NCBI RefSeq assembly: GCF_039535475.1
Contig: NZ_BAAAXG010000027.1
Coordinates: forward strand, 1 to 64,000
Length of the DNA: 64,000 nt
Source of the DNA: Streptomyces showdoensis
GTDB lineage: Bacteria; Actinomycetota; Actinomycetes; Streptomycetales; Streptomycetaceae
Reading direction: 5' to 3'
The translations under genes were made by a program, and so were the position numbers. The notes under the pieces were generated by a model that saw only the letters and a program-made list of their open reading frames with translations, was not told the origin of the DNA and searched no databases. Below, piece after piece: positions 9,266 through 58,493 of this stretch (its first letter is position 1; the number at the start of each line of letters is the position of its first letter).

Positions 9266-9408
9266 GAGGGCGAGGGGCCGCGGTCGTGCCGAGGCCCCGA
9301 CGGCCCCGCTCCCGGCCCCTCCGCGCCCGCCGGAGGCCCGTTTCCGGATCGTGACCTCGCGGCCCGCTCTTGTCCAGAAAGCCTGTACGAACGAACCGGC
9401 TTGCGACT

Positions 9409-9420
9409 TACCGTTCGGTA
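9409..9420. promoter_or_regulatory. Small dyad upstream of the RHS gene
   Basis: TACCG-TT-CGGTA, a 5-bp dyad of the ACCG..CGGT kind often bound by TetR-type repressors, 66 bp upstream of the RHS start. The rest of the 9266-9486 gap shows no other clear signal. Confidence 0.3.
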
Positions 9421-9486
9421 GGAAGGGGGCGGGGGCCGTCGTACGACCCGTGCTCCGGGGACGTCCGGCGGTTCGGGGGGCTTTCG

Positions 9487-12400
9487 ATGACTGTCCAGCG
9501 CGTGGTCCGCAGAAGGGCGGGGGTGACCGTCCTCCTGGCCGTGGTGCTCACCATGACCGGGCTGAGCTCGCCCGGACAACTGCGCGGCGCCGCGGCGTCG
9601 GTGCCGGACGCCGGGTCGGCGGTCACCGGGCCCGAGGGGCCTGAGGGCACATCGTTCAACCCGAACCAGATCAAGGACATCAAGGCGGCCGACCCCGGCT
9701 CCGGGGTGAACCTCATCGAGGCGCCGTCGGCCGCCCACAACGGCGACGCGCGGCTGTCGTACCCGCTGGAGGTGCCGAAGGGCCGCGCCGGCCTGGAGCC
9801 CAGTCTGGCCGTGACCTACAACTCCTCGGGGTCCGACGGGTGGCTCGGCGTCGGCTGGGACCTCGCCACCCCGGTGGTCTCCGTCGACACGCGGTGGGGC
9901 GTGCCGCGCTACGACGAGGGGCTGGAAACCGAGACCTACCTGCTCGACGGAGAGCAGCTGAACCCGGTGGCCCACCGGGGCGAGTTGAAGGCGCGCACGG
10001 CGGAGAAGGTGTTCCGCTCCCGGGTGGAGGGACGGTTCGAGCGGATCGTGCGCCACGGAGACAGCCCGTCGAACTACTGGTGGGAGGTCACCGACAAGCA
10101 GGGTGTCCGCACCGTCTTCGGCGGCACCGCCGACAGCACACTGGCCGACGGCAAGGGCCGCGTCGCCATCTGGGCGGCGCGGGAGAAACGCGACGGTCAT
10201 GACAACGTCATGCGCTACCGCTACGCCAAGGTGGCCGACGGCGGCACCACGGGCGCCACGGTGGCCGGCAGTGAGCTGTACCCGCAGAAGATCACCTACA
10301 CCGGCCGCGGCGACACCGACGGCAGGTACTCGGTGACGTTCGTCCGGGACCGCGAGCGCGGCGAGCCACGCAGGCCGGACGTGCGGATCGACGCCAAGTA
10401 CGGGTTCAAGAAGGTCACCGCCGACCTGCTGCGGCGCGTCGAGGTCAAGCTGGACGAGCAGCTGATCCGCGCCTACGAGCTGAACTACCGGACCGGGGCG
10501 TTCGCCAAGACGCTGCTCCAGTCGGTGTCGCAGTTCGGCGAGGACAACCGGCTGTTCAACACGCACACGTTCGACTACTTCGACGACGTGCGCGACGCGT
10601 CGGGAAATTACAACGCCTTCGCCACCGCCGCGGGTTGGTCGGTGCCGGACGACGACCTCGGGGTGAACATCCGCGAGGGCGAGGCCAGCGCGATCTCGGC
10701 GAACACCTCGGCCGGTTTCGGCGCCCACCTGTTCGCCGGCTACAACATCCAGGGGCTCACGACCAAGGAGGGCTCCGTCGGGCTGAAGGTCGGGTTCAAC
10801 GCCGGCCAGTCCGACGGCCTGTCGGCGCTGGCCGACGTGAACGGCGACAACCTGCCGGACAAGGTGTTCCGGAAGAACAACGAGGTCTTCTACCGGCCCA
10901 ACCTCGCCAAGCCGGGCGGTGAGCCGAAGTTCGGCGACACGCCCGTCAAGCTCACCGGCCTGCCTGGGATCTCGACCGAGCGCACGCTGTCCGGCACCAT
11001 CGGCGTCGAGTCGTACGTCCTCACCACCTCGGCCCAGCTGGACTTCGTGGGCACGACGACCACCTCGGACCGGTTCTTCAGCGACGTCAACGGCGACGGC
11101 ATCACCGACCTGGTGAACAACGGCGGCGTGCTGTTCGGTTACCTGGACGAGAAGGGGCAGCCCGCCTACAGCGCGGACTCCACCCGCACCCCGGTCCCGG
11201 TCGGGGGTGGCGCGGTGACCGGTCAGATCGTGGGCGACCAGACCGCGCAGTTCAACCAGCAGGTGGACAACTCGCCGCTCCTCGACACCGTGCGCCGCTG
11301 GGTCGCGCCGTACGACGGCAACGTCCGCGTGGACGGCCGCGTACAGCTGACCCAGGACCCCTCGCCCGCGCGGGCGGCCTACACCAAGGCCGACGGCGTG
11401 CGGGTCACCGTCCAGCACAAGGACACCGAACTCTGGGCCCAGCGGATCGGCCCCGACGACCACACCGAGTTCACCCCGGGCAACGTGGCCTCGGTCCCGG
11501 TGAAGAAGGGTGACGCGCTCTACTTCCGCACCCAGTCCATCCTGGACGGCAAGTACGACACCGTGGCCTGGGACCCGCAGGTCACCTACACCGACCTGCC
11601 GGCCGGCACGGACGCGAACGGGCTGGCGAGCACCGTCTTCCGCGCGTCCGCCGACTTCACCTACGGCGGCAGGCCCTCCCTGGTGACCGTACCGGTGACC
11701 GGCACGCTGCGGCTTACCGGTGACGTGGTCAAGTCCAAGGCAACCTCGGACGACGTGACCGTCGTGATCGAGAAGGGCAACGGCGTCCACACCCCCACGG
11801 AGGTGTACCGCAAGGTCCTGCCCGCCGCGTCGACCGGCACCACGGCGATAGACCTCAGCATCCCGGTCAGCACGTTCGAGAAGATGTCGTGGAAGCTGAA
11901 GACCGACTCCCCGATCGACACCTCCGCGGTGAGCTGGGCCCCTAAGGCGCACTACACGGCCGCGCAGGGGGTCGAGTCGGTCGTCGACGCCGCCGGTCGG
12001 CCCACGCTGGTGATCGAGCCGCCGTATGACCTGAGCATGTTCCCCGCGGACACCCTCACCGCGCCGCAGCAGTCCTACAAGGCCACCAAGACGGGCCAGT
12101 TGAAGGTGCGGCCGAAGATCTCCCTCAACTTCGGGCTCAACGGTGACGCCAAGATCGCGTTCACCGTGAAGAAGCGCGGCGGGCAGCTGCTCGGCAAGCG
12201 GATTTTCCAGGCCAAGGACACCTACTTCGGCAGCACGAACCTCGACCTGACGGTACCGGTCACCGCCGGGGACGAGCTCTACATCGACTACTCCACGACG
12301 GACACCGGACTGCTCGGCACGCTCGTCGACCAGTCCGCTTCGGTCACCTACGACGTGACCTCGGGCTGGCCGACGTTCACCCCGGCGCCCAGCGCCATGC

Positions 12401-15400
12401 ACGGCTCCGTCGGGCAGGGCGCCTTCGCCCAGCCCTACCGCGGCTGGGGCGTGATCGGCTACCAGGGCAACCGGGAGCGTGCCACCCAGCCGCTCAAGCA
12501 GGCCGAACTCACGCTGGACCAGAGCTTCAAGGACGCACTGCCCAAGGAGCCCAAGGAAGCGGACGTCGCCCCCTTCGCCGCGAACCCCCGGCTCACCATG
12601 CCGCGGCTCGCGGTGTTCGCCCCCGTTCCCGCCAAGGGCGGCTGGGCCGCCCAGGACCAGTCCTCCTGGATCACCGCCGCGATGGCGACCAGCTCCCGCC
12701 TCGGCGCGGACACCATCGACATCGTCACCGACGCCGACGTGGCAGGCGACCGCACGGTGATGCGCCGCGGAGTCACCGGCCAGGTGTCGGCCACCCTCGC
12801 GGCGGGCCCGTTCGGCGGCACCGTGGTCGGCGGCATCACGGCCGGCTCGGTCGACTACCTCGACCTCAACGGCGACGGCTACCCCGACGTCGTGGGCGCC
12901 AAGGAGATCCAGTACTCCGACATGAACGGCGCGCTCGGCGCCACGCGCGGCACCCTCGGCGGCAACGTCCGCGAGGCGGACAACGTCTCCGGCAACGTGT
13001 CGCTCTCCGCGGGCAGCGAGACCGCCACCGTCGCCAGCGCCCTCGGCATGGCCGCGCCCGACGCGGGCACCAGCGCCAACACCGCCACCACCGGCTCGGT
13101 CCAGCCGTCGCTCGGGATCGGCGGCAGCCTCGGCGGCGGCGAGTCCGACGTCCGCGTCGAGCTGATGGACATCAACGGGGACGGGCTGCCGGACAAGGTG
13201 TTCGCCAACGGCGACGTCCAGCTGAACCTCGGCTACTCCTTCGCCGCCCGCGAACCCTGGCCGGCCGGACCGATCAACGACGCGTCCACCCGCAACGCCG
13301 GCGTCAACCTCGGCTTCAACGTCGACCGCTACGGCTTCGCGGGCGGCGTCTCCGCCGAACTGGGAACCTCGTACACCAACGCGAGCATGATGGACGTCAA
13401 CGGCGACGGCCTCACCGACCGCGTGTTCACCGACGGGGCCAACCCGATCAAGGTCGCGATCAACACCGGCACCGGCTTCACGGCGCCCACCCCGTTCCGC
13501 GGCGGCTTCCCCGAGATCGCCGTCGACAAGAACGCCAGTCTCAGCGGCGGGGTCTACTTCACCGTCGGCCTGCCCACCCCCGTCGGCGTCTTCGTCTTCA
13601 ACCCCGGCGCCAACGTGTCCACCGGCATCAGCCGGGCCGAGACCGGGCTGCGCGACGTCAACGGCGACGGCCTCGCCGACCACGTCAGGTCGACCCGCGA
13701 CGACGAGCTCCTCGTCGCCGCCAACAAGACCGGGCGCACCAACCTCCTCCGCACGGTGTCCCGCCCGATGGGTGCGCGGATCGACCTGGACTACACCCGC
13801 ACAGGCAACACAGCCGAGATGCAGGAGAGCCGGTGGGTCCTGTCCCGCACCGCGGTGTTCGACGGGCTCGCGGGTGACGGCGCCGACACGCGCCTGACCA
13901 CCTTCCGCTACGAGCAGGGCCGTTACGACCGGCTGGAGCGCGAGTTCCTCGGCTTCGGCCGCGTGGTGACCGAGGACCGCGACCCCGGGGCGGGCGACGC
14001 CGTCCGCCGCACGGTGACCGAGGAGTACCGCACCGACGGATACGCGGGCCGCGGCCTGCTCACCCGCTCGCTGACCGAGGACGGCGCCGGCCACCCGTAC
14101 CGCGAGACCCTGAACACGTACCGGCTGCTCGACACCGACACGGACGGGGAGGCCGACCCGAAGAGCCGGACCGCCACCGTCTTCCCGCAGCTCGTCCGTA
14201 TCGAGGAGAGACACTTCGAAGGTGGGGCCGGCGGGGGGAAGTCCACCTTCACCGAGCTCTCCTACGACGCCTACGGCAACGTCGTCCGCACCTTCGACGC
14301 GGGCGACGAGGGCACTGCGGACGACGTGGAGACCGTCTACGCCTACACCGGCTCGGACCCGCGGTGCCGTGACCGGCACCTCGTCGGCATCGCCGACGCG
14401 ATCCGGCAGAAGGCCGCGGCCGGCGGCGCGCTGCTGCGCCACCGCGAGTCCACCGTGGACTGCGCGACCGGTGCCGTGCGCCAGTCGCGCGAGTACCTCG
14501 ACGACGACACGGCGGCCGTCTCCGACCTCGCGTACCACCCGGACGGGAACCTGAAGTCGGTGACCGGCCCGGCCAACGCCCGCGGGCAGCGCTACACGCT
14601 GGAGTACGGCTACGACACGACCGTCGGCGTCCACATCGAGTCCGTCGAGGACAGCTTCGGCTACCGCTCTACCACGGCGTACAACCTCAAGTACGGCCTG
14701 CCGGAGCGGAACACCGACCAGAACGGGCAGCCGCTCCGGATGGCCTACGACAGCGTGGGTCGGCTCGAGCGGGTGACAGGGCCCTACGAGAAGGACGGCG
14801 ACCGGGCCACGATTACCTTCGGCTACCACCCCGAGGCGACCGTCCCGTACGCCACGACCCAGCACCTCGACCGCGCCGCCTCGGGAGTGCGCGACGACAC
14901 CATCGACACCGTCACCTTCAGCGACGGCCTCAAGCGCGTCCTGCAGACCAAGAAGGACGCCTCGGTGTCCGCCTCGCCGGGGGCCGCCCCCGCGCAGGTC
15001 ATGACGGTCTCGGGCCGGCTCAGGTTCGACCACCTGGGCCGTGCCGTGGAGAAGTACTACCCGGTGACCGAGCCGAAGGGGGCAGCGAACACCGCGTTCA
15101 ACGCCTCCTTCGATTCCGTGGCGCCCACCAAGGACACCTTCGACGTCCTGGACCGGTCGGTCAGGACCGTGCAACCGGACGGCGTCGCCACCAGCACCCG
15201 CTACGGCTTCGGCGGGGATCGGGCGGGCACGCCCCGCTTCGAGCGCACGGTGACCGACGGCAACGGCAAGGAGCGCCGCACCTACACCGACGTCCGGGGT
15301 GCGGTCACCGCGGTGAAGGAATTCAGCGGCTCCTCGGAGATCTGGACCAGCTACGCGTACGACCCCACGGGCCAGGTCACGACGATCACCGACGACAAGA

Positions 15401-18279
15401 ACAACGTCACCCGCGCCGGCTACGACGGGCTGGGGCGCCGCGTCTCCTTCGAGAGCCCGGACGCCGGGCGCTCCGAGACCCGCTACGACCTCGCCGGGAA
15501 CGTCACGTCGAAGACCACCGCGAACCTGCGGGCCGTGGGCGGGGCCGTCGAGTACGACTACGAGTACTCGCGGCTCAAGGCCGTCCGCTACCCGACGTTC
15601 CCGGCGAACGACGTCTCCTACGTGTACGGGGCCCCCGGCGCTCCGCACAACGCTGCCTCGCGCATCACCGAGGTCCACGACGCGGCGGGAACGGTGAAGC
15701 GCGCCTACGGGGCGCTGGGCGAGGTGGTCGAGGAGACCCGCACGATCACCGCGGTCCGCGACGCCCCCCGCACCTACACCACGGCGTGGCGCTACGACGC
15801 CTTCAACCGCGTGCTGGAGATGACCTATCCCGACGGCGAGGTCCTCACCTACGACTACGACTCGGGCGGCCAGGTCGCCCGGGCCACCGGGTCCAAGAAC
15901 GGCACCGGCTATACCTACCTGGACCGGCTCGACTACGACAAGTTCGGCCAGAAGATCCTCCAGCAGACCGGCAACGGGGTGCGCACCACCTACACCTACG
16001 ACGCGGAGGACCGCCGGCTCGCGGCGCTGAGGTCCGTGGCGCCGGGCGGGACCGCTTTCCAGAACCTGGGCTACACGTACGACAGGATCGGCAACGTCAC
16101 CTCGCTGGTGAACGACGCGCCGCGGGGCGGGGACATCGGCGGCCCGAGCACCCAGACCTACGGGTACGACGACCAGTACCGGCTCACCTCCGCGTCCGGC
16201 CGGTACACGGACAAGAACGACGCGGTCAACACGTACACCCTGAGCCTGGCCTACGACTCGCTCCACAACACCACGAGCAAGACGCAGACCCACGAGGTCA
16301 CCGGCGGCACCCCGGCCTTCCCGGCCGGAGGCGGTGGGGCCGGGCCGATCGAACCCGTCGAGGACCCGTCCAACACGGGCGACGTCCAGGACCGGACCAC
16401 CTACGCCTACGCGTACACCTACGACGGCGCCCGACCGCATGCCCCGAGCAAGGTCGGTCCGGTCACCCATGCCTACGACGCCAACGGCAACCTGACCGGC
16501 ACGGTCAACACGGCCGGCGCCGGCAAGCGTCGGCAGTACGTGTGGGACGAGGAGAACCGCCTGGTCTGCACCCAGGACACGGCGACCGGCACCCTCGCGC
16601 AGGACCCGAGCGGCTGCGCCGGCGCCACCGTCTCCTACGTCTACGACGACAAGGGCGACCGCCTCGTCAAGCGGAGCGAGGAGGGGCTCTCCCTCTACCC
16701 GAACCGCTACTACAGCGAGCGCGACACCACCGGCTACAAGCACGTCTTCGTCGGCGACGGACGCGTAGCCACCAAGGCCGTCGAGACCACCGGCCCCGAG
16801 GAGGCCCAGCAGTTCTTCCACGCCGACCACATCGGCTCCTCCGGCTACGTAACCGACCAGCGGGGCGTGGTCACCGAGCACCTGGAGTACTTCCCGTACG
16901 GGGAGACCTGGGTGGAGGAGCGGACCGGACAGGCGGACACGCCCTACCAGTTCACCGGCAAGGAGCTCGACGCCGAGACCGGGCTGTACTACTACGGAGC
17001 CCGCTACTACAACCCGCGGACCCAGCTGTGGGCGAGCACCGACCCGGCGCTGCCCGACTACCTCGACGGCGACATGGCGGGCGGCATCGCCGAGCCGCGC
17101 AACCTCGCCGCCTACACGTACGCCCACGGCAACCCGGTCAAGCTGGCCGACCCGACCGGCAAGTGGCCGAAGATGCCGTCCTGGAAGACGATCGGCCACA
17201 CGACGCTCGACGTCGTCGGCATGGTGCCGGTCGTCGGCGAGGCGGCGGACCTGGCGAACGCCGGCTGGTACGCCGTCGAGGGCGACTACGTCAACGCGGG
17301 CCTCTCGGCGGCCTCAGCGATCCCCGGCGCGGGATACGCGGCGAACGCGGCCAAGTACAGCAACAAGGCGATCGACATGGCCCAGGCGGCCAAGACCGCC
17401 AACAACGCGGCCGACGCGTCGAAGACGGCCAAGGCGGCCGACACCCCGCCCGTGCCGAAGGCGGCGGACAGCCCTCCCGCCCCGAAACCGGCCGACAGCG
17501 GGGCGGGGGGCTGCGGCACCGGCAACAGCTTCACCCCGGACACCGAGGTCGTGATGGCCGACGGCACCCGGAAACCGATAGCCCAGGTGCGCGTCGGCGA
17601 CGAGGTCACCGCGACCGACCCGGTGACCGGGGAGAGCGGACCGCGCACGGTCACGGCGCTCATTACCGGTGAGGGCGAGAAGCACCTGGTGGAGATCACC
17701 GTCACCCACCCCGACGGCGCCCCGGGCAAGGTCGTCGCGACGGCCGGCCACCCCTTCTGGGCGCCCGAACTGGGCAAGTGGGTCTACGCCAAGGAGATCC
17801 TCCCCGGGACCCTGCTGCGGACCGGCAACGGCTCCTCCACCCAGGTGACCGCCGTCCGCGCGTGGACCCAGCAGAAGCGGGTCCACAACCTCACGGTGGA
17901 GGATCTGCATACGTACTATGTGCGGGCGGGCGAGGCTTCGGTACTCGTTCACAATGCAACGCCTGGTCAGAAGTGCGATCTGACGCTCGGGGCCGGTCCG
18001 CACGCCCGAGAGGGTGTAGCCCTGGAGAACGGTGACATCGAGGCGCCTGGCGTGCGAGAAATGATCAACGAATCAGGGAACGCGCACGGCTGCCACACGT
18101 GCGGCACCAAAGTGCCTGGTACCAAGGCTGGTGATTGGATTCCCGATCACCAGCCACCGACCAGTCTCATCGATCTCGGAACTCCTCAGACGGCTTATCC
18201 GCACTGCCTGGAATGTGCCAGGATTCAGGGCGGGGTCGTTTCGCAACTGTCACAAGGAAAGAGCAACAAGGGATGGTAG
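9487..18279 (+). CDS. Secreted SpvB/FG-GAP/RHS polymorphic toxin with Hint domain
   Basis: 2,930 residues. The ATG at 9487 follows GGGGGG, and residues 1-38 form a signal peptide ending GAAAS. Next come an SpvB-like domain (about 75-160), six calcium-loop FG-GAP motifs of the form DVNGDGLTD (near residues 450, 535, 1123, 1228, 1303 and 1393), RHS/YD repeats (about 1500-2400) and an RHS core (HADHIGSSGYV near 2445, DPTG near 2554). A Hint/autoprocessing domain runs from about Cys2676 to Asn2823 (NSFTPDTEVVMADGTRKPI, then DLHTYYVRAGEASVLVHN). The last 107 residues are a separate tip with CHTCG, DWIPDHQPP and YPHCLEC, a likely zinc-bound nuclease-like toxin. The plan resembles TcB/TcC cocoon proteins: the shell encloses the tip and Hint would release it. 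The tip and the next gene have visibly lower GC than the shell. Confidence 0.9.
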   Translation: MTVQRVVRRRAGVTVLLAVVLTMTGLSSPGQLRGAAASVPDAGSAVTGPEGPEGTSFNPNQIKDIKAADPGSGVNLIEAPSAAHNGDARLSYPLEVPKGRAGLEPSLAVTYNSSGSDGWLGVGWDLATPVVSVDTRWGVPRYDEGLETETYLLDGEQLNPVAHRGELKARTAEKVFRSRVEGRFERIVRHGDSPSNYWWEVTDKQGVRTVFGGTADSTLADGKGRVAIWAAREKRDGHDNVMRYRYAKVADGGTTGATVAGSELYPQKITYTGRGDTDGRYSVTFVRDRERGEPRRPDVRIDAKYGFKKVTADLLRRVEVKLDEQLIRAYELNYRTGAFAKTLLQSVSQFGEDNRLFNTHTFDYFDDVRDASGNYNAFATAAGWSVPDDDLGVNIREGEASAISANTSAGFGAHLFAGYNIQGLTTKEGSVGLKVGFNAGQSDGLSALADVNGDNLPDKVFRKNNEVFYRPNLAKPGGEPKFGDTPVKLTGLPGISTERTLSGTIGVESYVLTTSAQLDFVGTTTTSDRFFSDVNGDGITDLVNNGGVLFGYLDEKGQPAYSADSTRTPVPVGGGAVTGQIVGDQTAQFNQQVDNSPLLDTVRRWVAPYDGNVRVDGRVQLTQDPSPARAAYTKADGVRVTVQHKDTELWAQRIGPDDHTEFTPGNVASVPVKKGDALYFRTQSILDGKYDTVAWDPQVTYTDLPAGTDANGLASTVFRASADFTYGGRPSLVTVPVTGTLRLTGDVVKSKATSDDVTVVIEKGNGVHTPTEVYRKVLPAASTGTTAIDLSIPVSTFEKMSWKLKTDSPIDTSAVSWAPKAHYTAAQGVESVVDAAGRPTLVIEPPYDLSMFPADTLTAPQQSYKATKTGQLKVRPKISLNFGLNGDAKIAFTVKKRGGQLLGKRIFQAKDTYFGSTNLDLTVPVTAGDELYIDYSTTDTGLLGTLVDQSASVTYDVTSGWPTFTPAPSAMHGSVGQGAFAQPYRGWGVIGYQGNRERATQPLKQAELTLDQSFKDALPKEPKEADVAPFAANPRLTMPRLAVFAPVPAKGGWAAQDQSSWITAAMATSSRLGADTIDIVTDADVAGDRTVMRRGVTGQVSATLAAGPFGGTVVGGITAGSVDYLDLNGDGYPDVVGAKEIQYSDMNGALGATRGTLGGNVREADNVSGNVSLSAGSETATVASALGMAAPDAGTSANTATTGSVQPSLGIGGSLGGGESDVRVELMDINGDGLPDKVFANGDVQLNLGYSFAAREPWPAGPINDASTRNAGVNLGFNVDRYGFAGGVSAELGTSYTNASMMDVNGDGLTDRVFTDGANPIKVAINTGTGFTAPTPFRGGFPEIAVDKNASLSGGVYFTVGLPTPVGVFVFNPGANVSTGISRAETGLRDVNGDGLADHVRSTRDDELLVAANKTGRTNLLRTVSRPMGARIDLDYTRTGNTAEMQESRWVLSRTAVFDGLAGDGADTRLTTFRYEQGRYDRLEREFLGFGRVVTEDRDPGAGDAVRRTVTEEYRTDGYAGRGLLTRSLTEDGAGHPYRETLNTYRLLDTDTDGEADPKSRTATVFPQLVRIEERHFEGGAGGGKSTFTELSYDAYGNVVRTFDAGDEGTADDVETVYAYTGSDPRCRDRHLVGIADAIRQKAAAGGALLRHRESTVDCATGAVRQSREYLDDDTAAVSDLAYHPDGNLKSVTGPANARGQRYTLEYGYDTTVGVHIESVEDSFGYRSTTAYNLKYGLPERNTDQNGQPLRMAYDSVGRLERVTGPYEKDGDRATITFGYHPEATVPYATTQHLDRAASGVRDDTIDTVTFSDGLKRVLQTKKDASVSASPGAAPAQVMTVSGRLRFDHLGRAVEKYYPVTEPKGAANTAFNASFDSVAPTKDTFDVLDRSVRTVQPDGVATSTRYGFGGDRAGTPRFERTVTDGNGKERRTYTDVRGAVTAVKEFSGSSEIWTSYAYDPTGQVTTITDDKNNVTRAGYDGLGRRVSFESPDAGRSETRYDLAGNVTSKTTANLRAVGGAVEYDYEYSRLKAVRYPTFPANDVSYVYGAPGAPHNAASRITEVHDAAGTVKRAYGALGEVVEETRTITAVRDAPRTYTTAWRYDAFNRVLEMTYPDGEVLTYDYDSGGQVARATGSKNGTGYTYLDRLDYDKFGQKILQQTGNGVRTTYTYDAEDRRLAALRSVAPGGTAFQNLGYTYDRIGNVTSLVNDAPRGGDIGGPSTQTYGYDDQYRLTSASGRYTDKNDAVNTYTLSLAYDSLHNTTSKTQTHEVTGGTPAFPAGGGGAGPIEPVEDPSNTGDVQDRTTYAYAYTYDGARPHAPSKVGPVTHAYDANGNLTGTVNTAGAGKRRQYVWDEENRLVCTQDTATGTLAQDPSGCAGATVSYVYDDKGDRLVKRSEEGLSLYPNRYYSERDTTGYKHVFVGDGRVATKAVETTGPEEAQQFFHADHIGSSGYVTDQRGVVTEHLEYFPYGETWVEERTGQADTPYQFTGKELDAETGLYYYGARYYNPRTQLWASTDPALPDYLDGDMAGGIAEPRNLAAYTYAHGNPVKLADPTGKWPKMPSWKTIGHTTLDVVGMVPVVGEAADLANAGWYAVEGDYVNAGLSAASAIPGAGYAANAAKYSNKAIDMAQAAKTANNAADASKTAKAADTPPVPKAADSPPAPKPADSGAGGCGTGNSFTPDTEVVMADGTRKPIAQVRVGDEVTATDPVTGESGPRTVTALITGEGEKHLVEITVTHPDGAPGKVVATAGHPFWAPELGKWVYAKEILPGTLLRTGNGSSTQVTAVRAWTQQKRVHNLTVEDLHTYYVRAGEASVLVHNATPGQKCDLTLGAGPHAREGVALENGDIEAPGVREMINESGNAHGCHTCGTKVPGTKAGDWIPDHQPPTSLIDLGTPQTAYPHCLECARIQGGVVSQLSQGKSNKGW

Positions 18280-50676: not shown

Positions 50677-50706
50677 TCGACCGTTGTCAGTTCGAGGACC
50701 TACTCT
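50677..50706 (+). promoter_or_regulatory. Possible leaderless promoter of the SMC-like cassette
   Basis: TCGACC (50677-50682), 18-nt spacer, TACTCT (50701-50706), with the GTG start 7 nt later. The gap before it (50563-50660) is extremely G-rich with repeated GGCGG units. Confidence 0.3.
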
Positions 50707-50713
50707 GTGCACC

Positions 50714-52241
50714 GTGACTTCGCCTGCCTCGACGGACCTCGCTCCGCCCCAGCTCAGCGCGGGGCCGCGCCCCGCGCAGGGCCCGGCCGCCGACGAAGGG
50801 CTCGCGCGGCGGCTCCGCGCGCTCGCGTGCACCGCCCCGCTGCACGACCTGGACGTGCGCAAGGCGAACCTGGCCGGCGAGTACTCGGTCTACGCGATGG
50901 CCGAGGTCGCCCTCGCCGCGATCGACCTGGTCACGCTCAACATGGACTTCGACACCGGCGCCGACCACGAGCAGGTGGTCGCCCGGCTGCTGCCCCGCGT
51001 CGCCGCCCAGGCCGCCGAGCGCCCCGCCGCCGAGCACGAGCGGGTGGCCCGCTGGGTCCTCGAGAACCTGATCAACGTCGGCAGCGTCGACCGCGGCTTC
51101 CGCGCCGTCTACGGCACCTTCGGCGCCGACGGCGTCTACACCCGCCGCGACTACGACTTCAAGCTCATCGAAGAGGTCCCCGGCTACGGCGGCGGAGTCT
51201 GCCTGCGCACCACCGACGAGGCCGTCAACGTGCTCGTCGGCGCCCTCGACACCGACGTCACCAGCGCCCAGATCGCCGCCGAGGTGAAGCTGGAGGTCCT
51301 CATCAGCCGGGGCCGCCTCGCCGACGCCCAGCTCGCCGCCGAACAGGCCCGCTACCGCACCGTGCAGTACGCGGAGACCCTCCGCAGGACCCTGGAGGCC
51401 ACCCGGCGCAACGTCCGCGCGGTCGACTGGCTCAACGCCGTGCCCGACATGATCGCCGAAGCGCTCGACCACGTGGCCGACCGCTACCGCCACGAGAACG
51501 CGATCCTCACCAACATCCGCAAGGCCCGCGACGAGGCCGAGGACCAGGAGCACAAGCGCCGCGCCGCCGAGCTCGTCGACATCGTCAAGGACTGCATCCG
51601 GCGCCACACCCAGCTCCAGTCCCGGCTCCTGGAGGCCGGCCCGCTCTTCCGCGCCGAGCAGGACCGCCAGGCCTTCGCCGCCCCCACCGCCTACACCGGC
51701 CTCGACCTGTACGGGCAGCTGGTCGCCCCGCTCCTCCCGCTCCCCGTCGAGCAGGCCACCCGGGTCACCGACGCCTTCTTCGCGCACGGCACCGGACTGC
51801 GCACCCCCGCCTCCGTCCGCGTCGCCGACCTCGTCGAGCTGCTCCTCACCCCGCCCGTGGAGCGCCAGCACCTGGGCGCGGAGATGCCCGAGCCGGACCT
51901 CATCGCCACCCCCGACGACAGCCGCTTCAGCGAGGAGCAGCTGGCCGCCGCCATGGAGCTCCTCGACCTGGAGCACGACGCCCCGCGCCGCCTCTCCGGC
52001 CTGCTCGCCGACGCCCGGCGCCAGGACGCCGACCTTCCCTACCTGGTCGCCCTCCTCGCCGTCCACGCCGCGAGCCCCCCGGTCGGCACCGCCTACCGCC
52101 AGGGCGAGGAGCGCCTGCTGTTCGCCGTCGACGACGGCACCCCCCCTCGACGACCCCGAGTTCGGCGGCGCCGACCTCATCGTCGGCACGGCCCTCCTCG
52201 ACGCCGTCGGCATGGCCGCGGACCGCACGGAGGCCACGTGA
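50714..52241 (+). CDS. Kleisin/MukF-JetA-like subunit (one-base frameshift near 3' end)
   Basis: About 508 residues when corrected. Layout: an N-terminal helical/winged region (YSVYAMAEVALAAIDLVTLN, VARWVLENLINVGSVDRGF), a long helical middle (residues about 190-310, e.g. KARDEAEDQEHKRRAAELVD), and a C-terminal winged-helix-like part (LDLEHDAPRRLSGLLADARR). That order fits kleisins such as MukF, MksF and JetA. A run of seven C at 52140-52146 should hold six; as written the frame runs on into the next gene. Corrected, it ends ADRTEAT at 52241 and overlaps the next GTG by 4 nt. No enzyme motif. Assignment is by architecture and neighbours. Confidence 0.65.
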
Positions 52242-52783
52242 CCGCGCCCCAGCCGCCCGAGGACCCGGGGACCACCGGGGCCCCGGGCACCGAAGGCTCC
52301 GGCCAGGCCACCCCGGCCCCCGCCGCGGGCACCACCGCTCCGGCCCCCGTCACCGGTGCCGCCGAAGGCGCCGCCCCGGCCCCCGCCGCCGACCGCGCCC
52401 CCGGCCCCCGCGTGGCCGCCGTGCCGCTCGCCCGGCCCGGCGCCGACCGGCCCCTCGGCGACGTCCCCACGGACGGCCCCCGGGTGCGCCCCGTGCCCGC
52501 CCGGACGGCCCCCGAGCCCGTCCGCCGCCCCTTCGTGCGCGCCGTACCCCTGCCGCGCAAGCGCCGGCCGGACGACGCGCCCGCGGGCGGAGCCGCCCCC
52601 GGGACGCCGGCCGCCCCCGCGCCCGTCGCCGTCACGCCCGTACGCCTGCCCCTGCCCGAACCCGCCCCGGCGGCGGAGCCGGAGCGGACCCCGCAGGCCC
52701 CGGCGGCCCCGGCCGTCGCCCCCGTCCCGCCCGGGCACCCCGCCCCTTCGCACCCCCGCCGTACCGAGGAGCCCCAGCCGTGA
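52238..52783 (+). CDS. Proline/alanine-rich disordered protein
   Basis: 181 residues; GTG start overlaps the previous stop and its own stop overlaps the next start (GTGA at both ends), so it is made in fixed ratio with both. Nearly all Pro, Ala, Gly and Arg, with repeated short basic motifs (GPRVRPVPARTAPEPVRRP, FVRAVPLPRKRRP). No fold or membrane segment. It may act as a flexible linker or DNA-binding tether within the complex; no such subunit is known to me in MukBEF or Wadjet sets. Confidence 0.6.
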   Translation: MTAPQPPEDPGTTGAPGTEGSGQATPAPAAGTTAPAPVTGAAEGAAPAPAADRAPGPRVAAVPLARPGADRPLGDVPTDGPRVRPVPARTAPEPVRRPFVRAVPLPRKRRPDDAPAGGAAPGTPAAPAPVAVTPVRLPLPEPAPAAEPERTPQAPAAPAVAPVPPGHPAPSHPRRTEEPQP

Positions 52784-53676
52784 GCGAACACCACGTCGAG
52801 CACACCGACGCGTGGAGCGAGCCGGAGGCCCCGCAGACCGCCGCCGCGCCCTCGGCCGTCACCCCGGCGGACGCCGCCGACGCGGCCCGGCTCGTCTCCT
52901 TCGGGCTCCAGCCCAAGCTGCTGCCCGCGCGCGACGCCGAGTACGCCGAGCTGCTGCGCCGCTACCGCGAGGACCCCGCCTTCGCGCGGCTCGCCGACGC
53001 CGTCGCCACCGGCCTCGGCCTCGTCGTCCTGGAGGTCTCCCCGCGCGCCGGCATGGCCGTCACCGCGGGCGAGGACTCCGTCTTCGCCGTCCGCATGGGC
53101 GACTACGCCCGCCGCGCCTCCACCGACTCCGCCGACCGCTTCCTGCACGGCCTCGCGCACCTCGCCGTCGCCACGATGGCCTTCCCCCGCCCCGAGGACC
53201 TCGCCGACGACGGCTACATCGGCCGCCTCACCGTCAACGGCGTCGACGCCTTCGTGCGCCAGGCCTGCCGCCGCCTCGAGGAGCGCGCCGAGGAGCAGGG
53301 CGAGAACACCGACCCCGCCTCCGACGCCCCCGGCCTGGAGGCCGCCTGGCGGATCTACGCCCGGCGCAGCGCCACCGGCGCCACCAAGGACGCCCGCCGC
53401 CTCGCCGGCTCCACCACCGGCATCGTCGGCAAGGCCGTCGCCTTCCTCACCGACTCCGGCTTCCTCCAGCGGACCGGCGACGAGTCCGGCGGCTCCTACC
53501 GCACCACCGCCCGCTACCAGCTCCAGGTCCGCGACATGGCCGGAAGCGCCGCCATGGCCGAACTCCTCGACCTCGGCGTCGTCCCCGTCAGCGACGGCTC
53601 CGCGACCCTCCTGCCGCCGCCCGAGGGCGACGACCTGGAGCTCGCCGCCGACGCCGGCCTGCCCTTCCACGGCTGA
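52780..53676 (+). CDS. KITE/MukE-JetB-like winged-helix subunit
   Basis: 298 residues. After an acidic tail of about 45 residues comes a globular part with winged-helix features: GLGLVVLEVSPRAGMAVTAGED, FLHGLAHLAVATMAFPRPED, GYIGRLTVNGVDAFVRQACR, then a second unit GIVGKAVAFLTDSGFLQRTGDESGGSYRT (recognition helix plus wing). Tandem winged helices are the mark of KITE proteins (MukE, ScpB, JetB) that bind the kleisin. Position before the SMC-like gene agrees. It is 56 bp before that gene. Confidence 0.7.
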   Translation: MSEHHVEHTDAWSEPEAPQTAAAPSAVTPADAADAARLVSFGLQPKLLPARDAEYAELLRRYREDPAFARLADAVATGLGLVVLEVSPRAGMAVTAGEDSVFAVRMGDYARRASTDSADRFLHGLAHLAVATMAFPRPEDLADDGYIGRLTVNGVDAFVRQACRRLEERAEEQGENTDPASDAPGLEAAWRIYARRSATGATKDARRLAGSTTGIVGKAVAFLTDSGFLQRTGDESGGSYRTTARYQLQVRDMAGSAAMAELLDLGVVPVSDGSATLLPPPEGDDLELAADAGLPFHG

Positions 53677-53732
53677 CCGCCGCCCGCACGTCACCGCCCA
53701 TCCCGCGTACGAGAAGCACGAGAGTCCGCCGC

Positions 53733-56700
53733 ATGTACGAGCTGTCCCGGGTCCGCCTCTACTCCATCGGACCGGCCGGTGCCCGCTACGCCGACACCGT
53801 CCTGGACCTGCGCGGAGTCGGTGCGCCGGTGCCCCACCCCGCCCCCACCCAGGCGGAGTTCTTCGAGGAGGAGCCGGTCGGCCCGCCGCGCCGCCCCGCC
53901 CCCGCGGGCGTGCTCTTCCTGGAGAACGGCGGCGGCAAGTCCGTCCTCCTCAAGCTGATCTTCTCGGTCATGCTCCCCGGCCACCGCAACACCCTCGGCG
54001 GCGCGAGCTCCGGCGTGCTGCGCAAGTTCCTCCTCGCGGACGACTGCGGGCACGTCGCCCTGGAGTGGCAGCACACCCTCACCGGCGAGCTGGTCGTCGT
54101 CGGCAAGGCCAGCGAGTGGCGCGGCCGCCAGGTCTCCAACGACCCGCGCAAGTTCGCCGAGGCCTGGTACTCCTTCCGGCCCGGCCCCGGGCTCAGCCTC
54201 GACAACCTCCCCGTCGCCGAGGCCACCTCCGTGCGCCCGCCCGTCGAGGGTGCCTCCGGCGCCTCCGGCCGCCGCCGCACCATGAAGGGCTTCCGCGACG
54301 CGATCACCGAGGCGGGCAAGGCCTACCCGCACCTGGAGGTCTACTGGGAGGAGATCCACGACCGCTGGAACGAGCACCTCGGCGACCTCGGACTCGACCC
54401 CGAACTCTTCCGCTACCAGCGGGAGATGAACGCCGACGAGGGCGAGGCCGCCGGCCTCTTCGCGGTCAAGAAGGACTCCGACTTCACCGACCTGCTGCTC
54501 CGGGCCGTCACCGACACCCGCGACACCGACGGTCTCGCCGACCTCGTCGGCGGCTTCGGCAACAAGCTCGGCCGCCGCGCCGAACTCACCGCCGAGCGCG
54601 ACTTCACCGCCGGCTCCGTCGACCTGCTCACCCGCATCGTCGAGGCCGCCGACACCCGCGCCCGCGCGCGCGACGTGCACGCCGGGGCCGAGCGCCGCAC
54701 CCGCACCCTGGCCCGCCGGCTCTCCGCCCGCGCCGCCCTGGAGCGCGGCCGGGTCGCCGAGCTCGCCCAGCAGGTCACCTCCGCCGCCCACGCCGTCTCC
54801 GAGGCCGAGGAGGCCCGCGGCCGCAGCGCCCTCATCGCCGCCGAACTCGCCTACCGGCACGCCTCGCTGGCCCTGACCGCCGCCGAGAAGGGCGCCGCCG
54901 CCCAGCGCCGCGAGCTCACCGACGCCCGCACCCTGCACTCCGCCTGGCAGGCCGCCGAGTCCGTGCTCCGGCACCGCGCCGCGAGCGACCGCTCCACCCG
55001 GGTCGCCGCCGCCATCCGCGAGGCCGAGCGCGACGCCGCCCCGGCGCTCGCCGCCCGCGCCAAGGCCGCCGCCGATCTCGTCCGCGCCCTCGCCTCGGCC
55101 GCCGAGGAGGGCGAGCGGCAGGCCGCCGAGGAGGAGGAGCGCTCGGCCGCCCTCCAGGAGGCCGGCGAGACCGCCCACCGCGACGCCACCGCCGCCGCCA
55201 CCGAGGCCCAGCGCGCCCGCAGCGAGGCCGGACACCTGCGCCAGCGCCTCGCCGAGGTCGAGCAGGAGACCGCCGAGGCGGTCCGGGCCGGCTGGCTCGA
55301 CGACTCCGCCCCCGACGCCGACCCGGCCCGCGCCGCCCTCGCGGCGAGCGACGCCGAGAAGACCACGGTCGCCGCCTGGGACGTGGCCCGGGACGCCGCC
55401 CGCGCCGCCGCAGAGCGGGCCCGCGAGACCGCCGCCGCCGAGTCCCGCGCCGAACTCGCCGCCGCCCGCGCCTCCGACGCGGCCGAGGCCGCCGAGAACG
55501 CCTACGACGCGGAGCGCCGCGCCGCCGAGTCCCTCGCCGCCGACCCCCGCCTCGCCGAACTGCTCTCCCTGCCGAGCACGGGCCAGGGCTCCGGGCAGGG
55601 CACCGGCTCCCCGCTGCCCGGCCAGCGCGCGGGCGACGGCCCCGGCCCCGACGCGAGCGCCCCCGGCGCCGCCTTCGGCCTCGGCGCGGCGCCCGACGGC
55701 GACGGGCTCACCGTCACCGACTTCGACCGGTACGCCGACGAACTGCGCGCCCTGCTCGACCGGTCCATCGCCTCGGCCGAGCGCCAGCTCTTCGACCTGC
55801 GCACGGCCGCCGCCGACGACAACCGCATCCTCGGCGCCCTCGGCGACGGCGGACTGCTGCCGCCCGGCCCCGACGTCCTCGCCACCGTCGAGTACCTCGG
55901 CGAGCACGGCATCCCCGCCCTGCCCGGCTGGCGCTACCTCGCCCAGGCCGTCGACCCGGCCGACCACGCCGCCGTCCTCGCCGCCCGCCCCGAGCTGGTC
56001 GACGGCGTCGTGATCACCGACCCCGTCTCGTACGGCCGCGCCCGCGAGGTGCTGAGCGGCGCCGCCCTGCTGCCCCGCTCCACGGTCGCGGTCGGCACCG
56101 CCGCCGCCCTGCTCGCGCCCGTGCCGGCGCCCGCGTCCGGCCAGGACGCCGACGTCTTCCTCGTACCGCCGAACCCGGCCATGCACGACGAGCACGCCGC
56201 CGACGAGGAGCGCCAGGCGCTGCGCGGCCGCGCCACCGCCCGCGACGAGGAGATCCGCTCGCTGGCCGCCCGGCTCACCGGCGACCGCTCCCTGGCCGCC
56301 CGGATCGGCTCCTGGCGCGCCGACTGCCCGCCCGGCATGCTCGCCGAGCTGGCCGCCGTCGCCGCCTCCGCCGGCACCGCCGCCGAGACCGCGGCCGCCG
56401 CCCTGGCCGAGGCCCGTGCGGTACGGGCGGAGGCCGACGAGGCCGCCGCCGACGCCGCCCGGGTCCGCGACGAGCGCCAGGAGGCCGCCCAGCGCGCCCG
56501 CCGTGCCGCCGACGCGCTCGCCGGCCTCGCCTACCGGCTGCGCGAGCGCTCCGCCTGGCAGGCCAAGCTGCGCGAACTCGCGGACGACGCGGCCGAGTCC
56601 GAGGCCCGCGCCCAGACCTGTCTGGAGCGCGCCCGCGCCGCCGACGAGGACCGCCGCGCCGCCCAGCGCACCGCCGACGACGCCCACCGCACCGCCCGCG

Positions 56701-58493
56701 CCCTGCGGGCCGAGCGCGCCGAGATCGCCGGCGCCCCCGAGACCCTGCCGGAGGAGGACACCGCCGCGCCGCGCGCCGCGCTCCCCACCCTCCGCGAGGC
56801 GTACCGGGCCGCCTCCCAGGTGTACGAGAAGGTCGGCGTCGGCGCCGACCTGCGCGCCGAACAGGCCCGCGCCGAGAGCGACGAGTCCGCCGCCCTCGCC
56901 GAGCTCGACCGCCTCACCAACAAGGTCCGCACCCGCGCCGAGCAGCTGCTGGAGTCGACCGACGGCGCCGACGGACCGTCCCGCCAGGCCGCCGCCGCCC
57001 GCGCCGAGGCACTGGTGCAGAAGCTGGAGTCGCGCGCCTCCGAGGCCAGCGAGAAGCTGGGCCGGCTCCGCGGCGAGTCCGAGCGCCTCGCCCCCGAGGA
57101 CGGCGAGGCGCACACCGAGCTGCCCGAGGAGCTGATCCCGGCCGACGCGGAGCGGGCACAGGGCCTGCTGCGCACCGCCACCACCGAACTCGCGGCCCGC
57201 ACCGACGCCCTGGAGGCGGCCCGCGCCGCCCACACCGGTCTGCTCCAGGCCCACCGGTCGGCCGAGGACGCCACCGGCGGCTTCGACGAGACCGCGGCGC
57301 TCCTGCGCGACCTGCTGCGCGACCACGCGGAGGAGGAGCAGGAGGAGCCCGAGCCGTACCCGGGCCCGCTGGCCGAGGCCCGCGAGTCGGCGGCGGAGGC
57401 CCGCCGTTCGCTGCGCGGCTGCGCCGCCGACCTGTCGGCCGCCGACGCGGCCGTCCGCGAGGCCGGCGACATCCTCGTCCGGCACGCCAACGCGACCCGT
57501 TACGAGCAGGTCCGCACCCCGGCCCGGCAGCAGATCCGCGAACTGCCCGCCGCCGCGCTGCCGGAGCACGCCGCGAAGTGGGCCGAGGCGTTCGCGCCCC
57601 GGCTGCGGGTGCTGACCGACGAGCTGGAGCAGCTGGAGCGCAACCGCGACTCGATCGTGGACCGGCTGCGCGGTCTCGTCGAGTCCTCGCTGGCCACCCT
57701 GCGTTCGGCCCAGCGGCTGTCCCGGCTGCCCGAGGGGCTGGGCGAGTGGTCCGGGCAGGAGTTCCTGCGGATCCGCTTCGAGGAGCCGGACCAGGCGACG
57801 CTCACCGAGCGCCTCGGCGAGGTCGTCGACGAGGCGACCCGGGCCGCCGTGCGGAAGAACTCGGACCTGCGCAGGGACGGCATGTCCCTGCTGCTGCGCG
57901 GAGTCCAGGCCGCCCTGGAGCCCAAGGGCATCGCCGTGGAGATCCTCAAGCCGGACGCGGTGCTGCGCGCCGAGCGCGTCCCGGTCGGCCAGATGGGAGA
58001 CGTCTTCTCCGGCGGCCAGCTGCTCACCGCCGCCATCGCGCTCTACTGCACGATGGCCGCGCTCCGCTCCAACGACCGGGGCCGCGACAAGCACCGCCAC
58101 GCGGGCACGCTCTTCCTGGACAACCCGATCGGCCGCGCGAACGCCACGTACCTGCTGGAGCTCCAGCGGGCCGTGTCGGACGCGCTGGGCGTGCAGCTGC
58201 TGTACACCACGGGCCTCTTCGACACGACCGCGCTCGCCGAGTTCCCGCTGGTCATCCGGCTGCGCAACGACGCGGACCTGCGCGCGGGCCTGAAATACAT
58301 CAGCGTGGAGGAGCACCTGCGGCCCGGCCTGCCGCAGCCGAGCGCGGAGGGCGAGACCATCCACGGCGAGATCACCGCGACCCGGATGTTCCGCCGCTCG
58401 CCGGAGGCCCGTACGTCGGACGCCCGCTCGCCGGAGGCCCGTACCTCGGAGGCCCGCTCGTCGGAGGCTTCCGCGGCCACCGCGGCGGAGTAG
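53733..58493 (+). CDS. SMC/MukB/JetC-like coiled-coil ATPase
   Basis: 1,586 residues. Walker A ENGGGKSV (64-71, Lys69) is near the N-terminus. Two very long Ala/Glu/Arg-rich coiled coils (about 230-560 and 820-1250) flank a hinge-like globular region (about 640-800). A C-terminal head half has the ABC signature FSGGQ (1425-1429) and Walker B LFLDN (Asp1463, then Asn1464). Closing of the head halves would make a composite ATPase as in MukB, MksB and Wadjet JetC. The C-terminus has 10-residue repeats (RSPEARTSDA type). The Asn in place of the usual catalytic Glu is notable. Final gene of the cassette; no JetD nuclease follows. Confidence 0.85.
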   Translation: MYELSRVRLYSIGPAGARYADTVLDLRGVGAPVPHPAPTQAEFFEEEPVGPPRRPAPAGVLFLENGGGKSVLLKLIFSVMLPGHRNTLGGASSGVLRKFLLADDCGHVALEWQHTLTGELVVVGKASEWRGRQVSNDPRKFAEAWYSFRPGPGLSLDNLPVAEATSVRPPVEGASGASGRRRTMKGFRDAITEAGKAYPHLEVYWEEIHDRWNEHLGDLGLDPELFRYQREMNADEGEAAGLFAVKKDSDFTDLLLRAVTDTRDTDGLADLVGGFGNKLGRRAELTAERDFTAGSVDLLTRIVEAADTRARARDVHAGAERRTRTLARRLSARAALERGRVAELAQQVTSAAHAVSEAEEARGRSALIAAELAYRHASLALTAAEKGAAAQRRELTDARTLHSAWQAAESVLRHRAASDRSTRVAAAIREAERDAAPALAARAKAAADLVRALASAAEEGERQAAEEEERSAALQEAGETAHRDATAAATEAQRARSEAGHLRQRLAEVEQETAEAVRAGWLDDSAPDADPARAALAASDAEKTTVAAWDVARDAARAAAERARETAAAESRAELAAARASDAAEAAENAYDAERRAAESLAADPRLAELLSLPSTGQGSGQGTGSPLPGQRAGDGPGPDASAPGAAFGLGAAPDGDGLTVTDFDRYADELRALLDRSIASAERQLFDLRTAAADDNRILGALGDGGLLPPGPDVLATVEYLGEHGIPALPGWRYLAQAVDPADHAAVLAARPELVDGVVITDPVSYGRAREVLSGAALLPRSTVAVGTAAALLAPVPAPASGQDADVFLVPPNPAMHDEHAADEERQALRGRATARDEEIRSLAARLTGDRSLAARIGSWRADCPPGMLAELAAVAASAGTAAETAAAALAEARAVRAEADEAAADAARVRDERQEAAQRARRAADALAGLAYRLRERSAWQAKLRELADDAAESEARAQTCLERARAADEDRRAAQRTADDAHRTARALRAERAEIAGAPETLPEEDTAAPRAALPTLREAYRAASQVYEKVGVGADLRAEQARAESDESAALAELDRLTNKVRTRAEQLLESTDGADGPSRQAAAARAEALVQKLESRASEASEKLGRLRGESERLAPEDGEAHTELPEELIPADAERAQGLLRTATTELAARTDALEAARAAHTGLLQAHRSAEDATGGFDETAALLRDLLRDHAEEEQEEPEPYPGPLAEARESAAEARRSLRGCAADLSAADAAVREAGDILVRHANATRYEQVRTPARQQIRELPAAALPEHAAKWAEAFAPRLRVLTDELEQLERNRDSIVDRLRGLVESSLATLRSAQRLSRLPEGLGEWSGQEFLRIRFEEPDQATLTERLGEVVDEATRAAVRKNSDLRRDGMSLLLRGVQAALEPKGIAVEILKPDAVLRAERVPVGQMGDVFSGGQLLTAAIALYCTMAALRSNDRGRDKHRHAGTLFLDNPIGRANATYLLELQRAVSDALGVQLLYTTGLFDTTALAEFPLVIRLRNDADLRAGLKYISVEEHLRPGLPQPSAEGETIHGEITATRMFRRSPEARTSDARSPEARTSEARSSEASAATAAE

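Follow-up and report, generated by a model that had tools for sequence, protein, structure and literature searches.

A JetD-less JetABC cassette of Wadjet type III ancestry behind a DNA-damage-type promoter in Streptomyces

What is the role of a kleisin-KITE-SMC set in Streptomyces when the nuclease that accompanies its nearest relatives is missing? The question is raised by four co-directional open reading frames (ORFs) located at positions 50714-58493 of a 64,000-nucleotide stretch of Streptomyces showdoensis DNA (the first 64,000 positions of contig NZ_BAAAXG010000027.1, hereafter the window), belonging to a genome of 8.5 Mb in 29 contigs. They encode a kleisin, a Pro-rich protein, a 298-aa protein and a 1,586-aa ATPase of the structural maintenance of chromosomes (SMC) type. 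The original prediction, made from the letters alone, saw here a relative of the MukBEF, MksBEF and Wadjet JetABC complexes lacking the nuclease JetD and carrying a conserved-looking extra subunit, with two possible roles, that of a condensin of the chromosome and that of a plasmid or phage sensor without a nuclease. The reading that we prefer, with a probability of roughly 0.55, is that of a JetABC set derived from Wadjet type III which lost or never had JetD, and which would now be a fixed chromosomal condensin of Streptomyces within a RecA-independent DNA-damage regulon.

Identity of the cassette and absence of JetD

By gene order and sequence similarity, the cassette is a JetABC set, with kleisin, KITE and SMC genes, that belongs by ancestry to Wadjet type III and has no JetD. 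The kleisin and the ATPase match the PADLOC models JetA3 and JetC3 with high scores (Table 1), and the ATPase carries aligned Walker A, signature and Walker B motifs. The predicted gene order and affinity to the Wadjet/Mks group were borne out, specifically for type III, as were the co-directional layout and the size of the ATPase, whereas the first gene turned out not to be an intact ORF, owing to a frame change in a run of C.

The third gene is, we think, the counterpart of jetB. Neither its product nor the Pro-rich protein matches any Pfam, NCBIfam or PADLOC family at E < 0.01, and for the former nothing was found below E 0.8, PADLOC JetB3 included. When two JetB proteins from JetD-bearing loci were scanned, one of them reached JetB3, weakly (E 7.6e-4), and the other matched none. 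The assignment is made in spite of the missing family match, as the protein shares 49-50% identity with the product of the second gene in two JetD-bearing accessory Streptomyces sets (L057 and L060); over the JetD-bearing loci more broadly, identity to JetB is 44-53% for the six nearer ones and 33-44% for the eight farther ones. The winged-helix folds of the kleisin and of the KITE subunit, the latter a tandem one in the original prediction, are putative; a sequence search of solved structures found no relative.

JetD was sought at the loci by tblastn and with a hidden Markov model (HMM) built from the JetDs. The locus set comprised 36 core loci (L021-L056), hand-picked from a draw of 150 genomes mostly for long contigs and not for kinship; 20 close kin of the window (L107-L126), of which one truncated by a contig end (L115) was dropped from the locus counts; and 24 other loci, 15 of them accessory and nine from two further families (f18 and f46). 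JetD adjoins JetC in 14 of the 15 accessory loci, six chosen for a nearby JetD profile match and eight not; the fifteenth (L094) is cut by a contig end and was left out of the JetD label counts. Beside the core cassette there was none in 56 loci, window included, nor was any found at the nine f18 and f46 loci, a result that concerns the loci and not the rest of those genomes.

A JetD encoded elsewhere in the same genome was also considered. The window's genome has no match to PF09983, PDLC00594 or PF09664 (E <= 0.001), the second profile being used because PF09983 by itself fails to match some JetDs of type III, such as that of L057. Among 150 genomes of the genus, PF09983 matched 18, PDLC00594 21 and PF09664, which we take to be mainly a type II JetD family, 61. 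The union of the three is 70 genomes (hand count), and the remaining 80, the window's among them, have no match to any, so that the core set is independent of a JetD located elsewhere; this candidate was rejected. The absence of the nuclease was correctly predicted, and a JetD working with the set from another place, which the original prediction had itself named as its refutation, is not consistently found. JetC3 matches were found in 147 of the 150 genomes, with at most three candidates scored per genome and accessory sets possibly among the matches.

Table 1. Features of the cassette, with positions in the window.
Feature	Positions	Strand	Basis
RecA-NDp/PafBC-type promoter, TTGTCAGT-N9-TANNNT, leaderless arrangement	50684..50706	+	motif searches of window, loci and genome
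jetA-like kleisin gene, frame-broken	50714..52241	+	JetA3 PDLC00567, 581 bits, E 6.5e-175
Pro-rich spacer ORF, GTG start, 181 codons	52238..52783	+	overlaps at both ends; no family match
jetB-like KITE subunit gene, 298 aa	52780..53676	+	identity to JetB of JetD-bearing loci
jetC-like SMC ATPase gene, 1,586 aa	53733..58493	+	JetC3 PDLC00588, 1,407 bits
Walker A ENGGGKS, jetC residues 64-70	53922..53942	+	alignment
Low-complexity insert, jetC residues ~610-660	55560..55712	+	length comparison of aligned JetC stretch
ABC signature VFSGGQ, jetC residues 1424-1429	58002..58019	+	alignment
Walker B TLFLDNPIG, jetC residues 1459-1467	58107..58133	+	alignment

Conservation in the genus and evolution of the set

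The kleisin is present in all 132 Streptomyces genomes among 147 drawn from the order, with 84-96% identity in the other 131, and only two of the 15 genomes from outside the genus have a match, a distant one. Of 394 genomes drawn from the class, 60 matched, 40 in the same genus, 19 in family f18 (62-64% identity) and one in f46 (61%); f18 is probably Pseudonocardiaceae, since proteins of Amycolatopsis and Prauserella are 61-65% identical. The set lies at a rather constant place: measured at 30 core loci whose contigs are long, the median distance to the nearer contig end was 16% (10-20% in 20 of them, less in three and more in seven). A histidine-kinase homologue is kept downstream in 28 of 36 loci, 47-80% identical vs. 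83-92% for JetA. Among seven near kin of the window (six pairs), the ratio of nonsynonymous to synonymous change (Kn/Ks) was 0.06-0.17 for jetA, 0.05-0.14 for jetB and 0.12-0.20 for jetC, values that show purifying selection on the three proteins. The predicted residence in the chromosome, as a genus-wide set beside SMC-ScpAB, gains support from this distribution and from ScpB, which is encoded in the same genome as the cassette.

This distribution bears on the alternative that the cassette is a nuclease-free device against plasmids or phages, in which JetABC would silence incoming circular DNA after measuring or compacting it, or serve an effector encoded elsewhere, upon induction by single-stranded DNA (ssDNA) that stems from invading DNA. 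Its nearest relatives are Wadjet III sets that do have JetD, and some of these share its promoter motif (see below). However, presence throughout the genus with 83-92% identity (36 loci) and at a mostly stable chromosomal place is not what the accessory sets look like, which are patchy (a JetD3-type JetD scoring > 150 bits occurs in 11 of 150 genomes). Besides, a plasmid collection contained no core-like copy (four records match distantly, all below 60% identity), a phage collection contained no kleisin match, and no coupled extra gene was found downstream of the cassette. We thus consider a defensive role unlikely.

Another alternative, that of a decaying Wadjet relic, comes to mind because of the jetA of the window. 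Its reading frame shifts at a seven-C run (52140-52146), ca. 32 codons short of the stop. The first ca. 476 codons share their frame with the Pro-rich ORF and run on into it as a single 689-aa ORF (50714-52783), while the conserved kleisin tail, LDDPEFGGADLIVGTALLDAVGMAADRTEAT (ca. 32 codons when the frames are translated separately), is in another frame that ends at the TGA at 52239-52241. However, all 55 orthologous core loci have a full-length jetA (500-515 aa), the Kn/Ks of 0.05-0.20 over the three genes is low, and the out-of-frame tail in the window still aligns with the tail of its relatives. The frame change is, on these comparisons, a recent mutation or a sequence error, and decay of the system across the genus is very improbable.

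How the core set relates to those with JetD was examined in a kleisin-KITE tree of 38 rows (15 of the 56 core loci included; midpoint root; L059, on a long branch, left out of a second tree). The 15 core rows form one clade and the eight f18 rows another, each with 100/100 support, among JetD-bearing lineages. Placing the JetD label on the tree requires three changes, at least two of them forced by well-supported branches. In approximately unbiased (AU) tests, with groups named after the first tree had been seen, a single clade of all JetD-less rows (core, f18 and the f46 locus L091) was rejected (p 0.00014), and one of core and f18 alone was not (p 0.196). We infer that the direction was loss of JetD rather than gain. 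A trace of a lost JetD interface was also looked for: among the columns conserved in the six near JetD-bearing rows, 6 of 162, 6 of 78 and 8 of 291 differ in both JetD-less clades and, with no clear patch among them, this candidate was rejected.

The ATPase itself differs in length between the two kinds of set. JetC has 1,481-1,500 aa in 12 accessory rows and 1,526-2,038 aa in 54 core rows (the SMC of L038, L121, L092 and L105, whose frame was not recovered, being left out, as were the short L088 and L090 in some analyses); JetB has 259-282 aa in JetD-bearing accessory rows against a median of 298 aa in the core. Low-complexity inserts, differing in length, are found in most JetC proteins of the JetD-less core, in a stretch that is nearly constant in JetD-bearing ones; in the window the insert covers about residues 610-660. 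The compared stretch measures 70-80 residues in 12 of 12 JetD-bearing rows, 74-472 in 15 core rows (>100 in 13) and, where f18 rows are full-length, 76-113 (five rows). The insert was rejected as a strict sign that JetD has been lost, because two core rows of the 15 (with 74 and 80 residues) lack it and so does L091, a locus without JetD that has neither length change (JetC of 1,480 aa, JetB of 263 aa). In the f18 orthologues L088 and L090 the SMC match covers only ca. 1,150-1,210 codons, and the coiled coil may be much shorter.

SMC ATPases usually have a catalytic Glu in Walker B at the position where this cassette has Asn (LDNPIG). The same Asn was found in 27 of 27 aligned rows, those with JetD included, and a special loss of ATPase activity in the JetD-less set was accordingly discarded.

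The remaining gene, the Pro-rich ORF, is not the conserved subunit that had been proposed. In the window it overlaps the kleisin stop by 4 nt and the KITE start by 4 nt, and the same arrangement recurs in 50 of 55 core loci, where a separate ORF of whatever length overlaps the stop of jetA (as NTGA or TGATG) at its beginning and the start of jetB (by 4 nt) at its end. Its length is, by contrast, far from constant. In the 36 hand-picked loci (the close kin were left out of these statistics) a spacer ORF was found in 34, with 12-265 codons and a median of 39, reaching at least 100 codons in only five, one of which (L048) contains undetermined letters; in the other two, JetA overlaps JetB with no ORF between them. 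For 13 of the 14 accessory loci examined, and for most f18 and f46 loci, it is jetB whose frame begins at the stop of jetA. The Kn/Ks of the spacer in the same six pairs is 0.56-0.65, so a conserved subunit was rejected on both length and sequence. We read the ORF as a translational coupler of weakly constrained sequence, since the overlaps at both ends are kept although length and sequence vary. The common end of the ORF, EEPQP, coincides with a GAGGAG ribosome-binding-like sequence ahead of the KITE start. Two short motifs, VRA(V/I) and VTPV(R/P)LP, recur in all seven close-kin spacers aligned, which leaves room for a clade-specific role of the protein.

The promoter and its company in the genome

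Upstream conservation (alignment of 56 loci) is confined to ca. 45 nt before jetA, and this stretch contains TTGTCAG...TANNNT, which fits the PafBC (RecA-NDp) motif described for mycobacteria, TGTCGG or TGTCAG-10xN-TA-3xN-T (PMC8151990). The strict form, TGTCRG-N10-TANNNT, is found in 51 of the 56 core loci, and TGTC-N12-TANNNT, with at most one hexamer mismatch, in all of them. In the window the -10-like hexamer TACTCT ends 7 nt ahead of the GTG start, and exactly this distance to an in-frame GTG is kept in 53 of the 56; with so short a spacing, the jetA transcript should be leaderless. When both strands of the 64-kb window were searched the strict form appeared at the jetA site only, and the background at the same loci, outside that site, was two occurrences in 2.77 Mb of strand.

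The pattern TTGTCRGT-N9-TANNNT occurs 22 times in the whole genome (L134-L155), against zero for a reversed control. The likely next ORF was taken at the 21 sites other than jetA, and 20 of these ORFs were scanned. Ten are related to DNA repair or replication: RecA, RuvC, uracil-DNA glycosylase (ung), the alpha (dnaE), gamma/tau (dnaX) and a beta-like (DnaN-like) subunit of DNA polymerase III, O6-methylguanine methyltransferase (MGMT), a UvrD-like protein, an AlkZ-like glycosylase and a RecD2-type helicase. The motif sites of this Streptomyces genome are, as far as their neighbours tell, the company of a DNA-damage regulon of PafBC type, much like the mycobacterial RecA-NDp/PafBC regulon, with the same TGTCRG-N10-TANNNT before recA, ruvC and other repair genes. 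For Streptomyces, by contrast with mycobacteria, PafBC control is here a putative one. Streptomyces are reported to encode PafBC homologues (PMC9380542). The words SMC, MksB and condensin are absent from the main text of PMC8151990.

The promoter thus favours a role in genome maintenance, yet several observations speak against, or at least complicate, our interpretation of the cassette as a damage-regulated condensin. In the strain of the window, jetA reads as broken. The other ten of the 20 ORFs behind the motif are not plainly repair genes: a hydrolase, a sigma factor, an MFS protein, TerD, macro domain, WGR and DUF proteins, and two without a family. An initial search mentioned in PMC9380542 suggested that the PafBC motif of M. 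smegmatis is not conserved in S. venezuelae. The motif was found at none of the nine f18 and f46 loci but does precede six of the 15 accessory loci (L058, L059, L094, L099, L100 and L105), five of them with a demonstrated JetD, and therefore cannot by itself separate maintenance from defence; it follows too that the promoter link may predate the loss of JetD. PafBC is reported to be activated by ssDNA (PMC11804915), which invading DNA could also supply. Finally, one f18 genome (G465) has a second set that bears JetD (L093).

Two of these points have a side of their own. The matches in S. showdoensis are at odds with the remark in PMC9380542, which concerns S. venezuelae. And, with the motif before accessory loci, some real Wadjets may be induced by DNA damage or ssDNA.

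Possible roles and known relatives

If the cassette works as we propose, DNA damage would give rise to ssDNA, and a PafBC-type activator would let RNA polymerase start at the TGTCAG/TANNNT promoter. JetA would be translated from the 5' GTG of a leaderless transcript, and ribosomes would traverse the coupled spacer ORF to reach JetB, with JetC following. JetA would then bridge the heads of the JetC dimer and JetB bind the kleisin, and the complex, driven by ATP, would load on DNA and extrude or hold loops. In relatives, JetABC is described as a dimer of SMC dimers, and the total-extrusion model has it pull circular DNA in, up to the point where the motors meet and JetD can cut (PMC10586767). 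Without JetD there would be no cutting, and JetABC would instead compact or tether the damaged or replicating chromosome, acting as a condensin for repair or segregation.

The more ambitious version of this proposal is an inducible, nuclease-free repair condensin derived from Wadjet III, serving a RecA-independent damage programme throughout the genus and playing in bacteria a part comparable to that of Smc5/6 or damage-loaded cohesin, with JetD lost more than once in the actinomycetes. We put it forward tentatively, as falling somewhat short of even odds.

The closest known systems are the Wadjet type III (JetABCD) sets, among them the accessory Streptomyces loci L057, L058, L060 and L095, which share with the core set the JetA3 and JetC3 matches, the A-B-C order, the coupled genes and, in part, the promoter motif. 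They differ from it in having JetD, in the direct overlap of JetA and JetB and in their shorter JetC. P. aeruginosa MksBEF and E. coli MukBEF resemble the core set as SMC-kleisin-KITE complexes without MksG/JetD. The former, probably a product of JetD loss, is reported to help organise and segregate the chromosome (PMC10586767), but the core set is distinguished from both by its type III ancestry, its genus-wide presence in Streptomyces and the damage-type promoter. C. glutamicum MksBEFG is likewise an actinobacterial complex of the Mks group beside SMC-ScpAB (PMC7083940); unlike the core set it has the MksG nuclease, and its action is on plasmids and leaves the organisation of the chromosome unaffected (PMC10123090, PMC7083940).

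The comparison with MksBEF leads to a different possibility, a second housekeeping condensin of the P. aeruginosa kind, for growth or sporulation, to which the damage promoter would be one input only. Conservation throughout the genus under purifying selection is what one would expect of it, and so is a ScpB in the same genome. There would also be room for a condensin partner, as the smc deletion of S. coelicolor is reported to be viable, with 7% of what we read as anucleate cells (PMC4255302). However, the damage-type element is the only conserved promoter element before jetA, a statement that holds for the upstream alignment (no other search for developmental promoters was made), and we find such a general function rather doubtful next to a damage-regulated condensin.

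Elsewhere in the window (9355-18279) there is a 2,974-aa ORF with SpvB, RHS repeat, TcdB_toxin_midN and pretoxin HINT domains, i.e., a polymorphic RHS/Tc-type protein.

Members of the Wadjet group without JetD are already known in print, several of them in PMC7617805, the main text of which does not contain the word Streptomyces (the supplement listing the operons is outside this statement). We have found no description of the genus-wide type III case with its damage-type promoter in the open-licence literature, supplements not covered. One practical consequence concerns surveys: the PADLOC models PDLC00567 and PDLC00588 match the nuclease-free core set, so that profile searches may count it as a partial Wadjet III system.

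What is found here is a genus-wide JetD-less set whose place is among relatives that bear JetD, and the genus is one studied for its chromosome biology. It bears on whether JetD-less complexes descend from defence systems and on what they do afterwards. The data suggest a defence machine turned into a genome-maintenance machine, and the promoter points to a concrete function, making it testable whether a Wadjet-derived complex serves genome repair.

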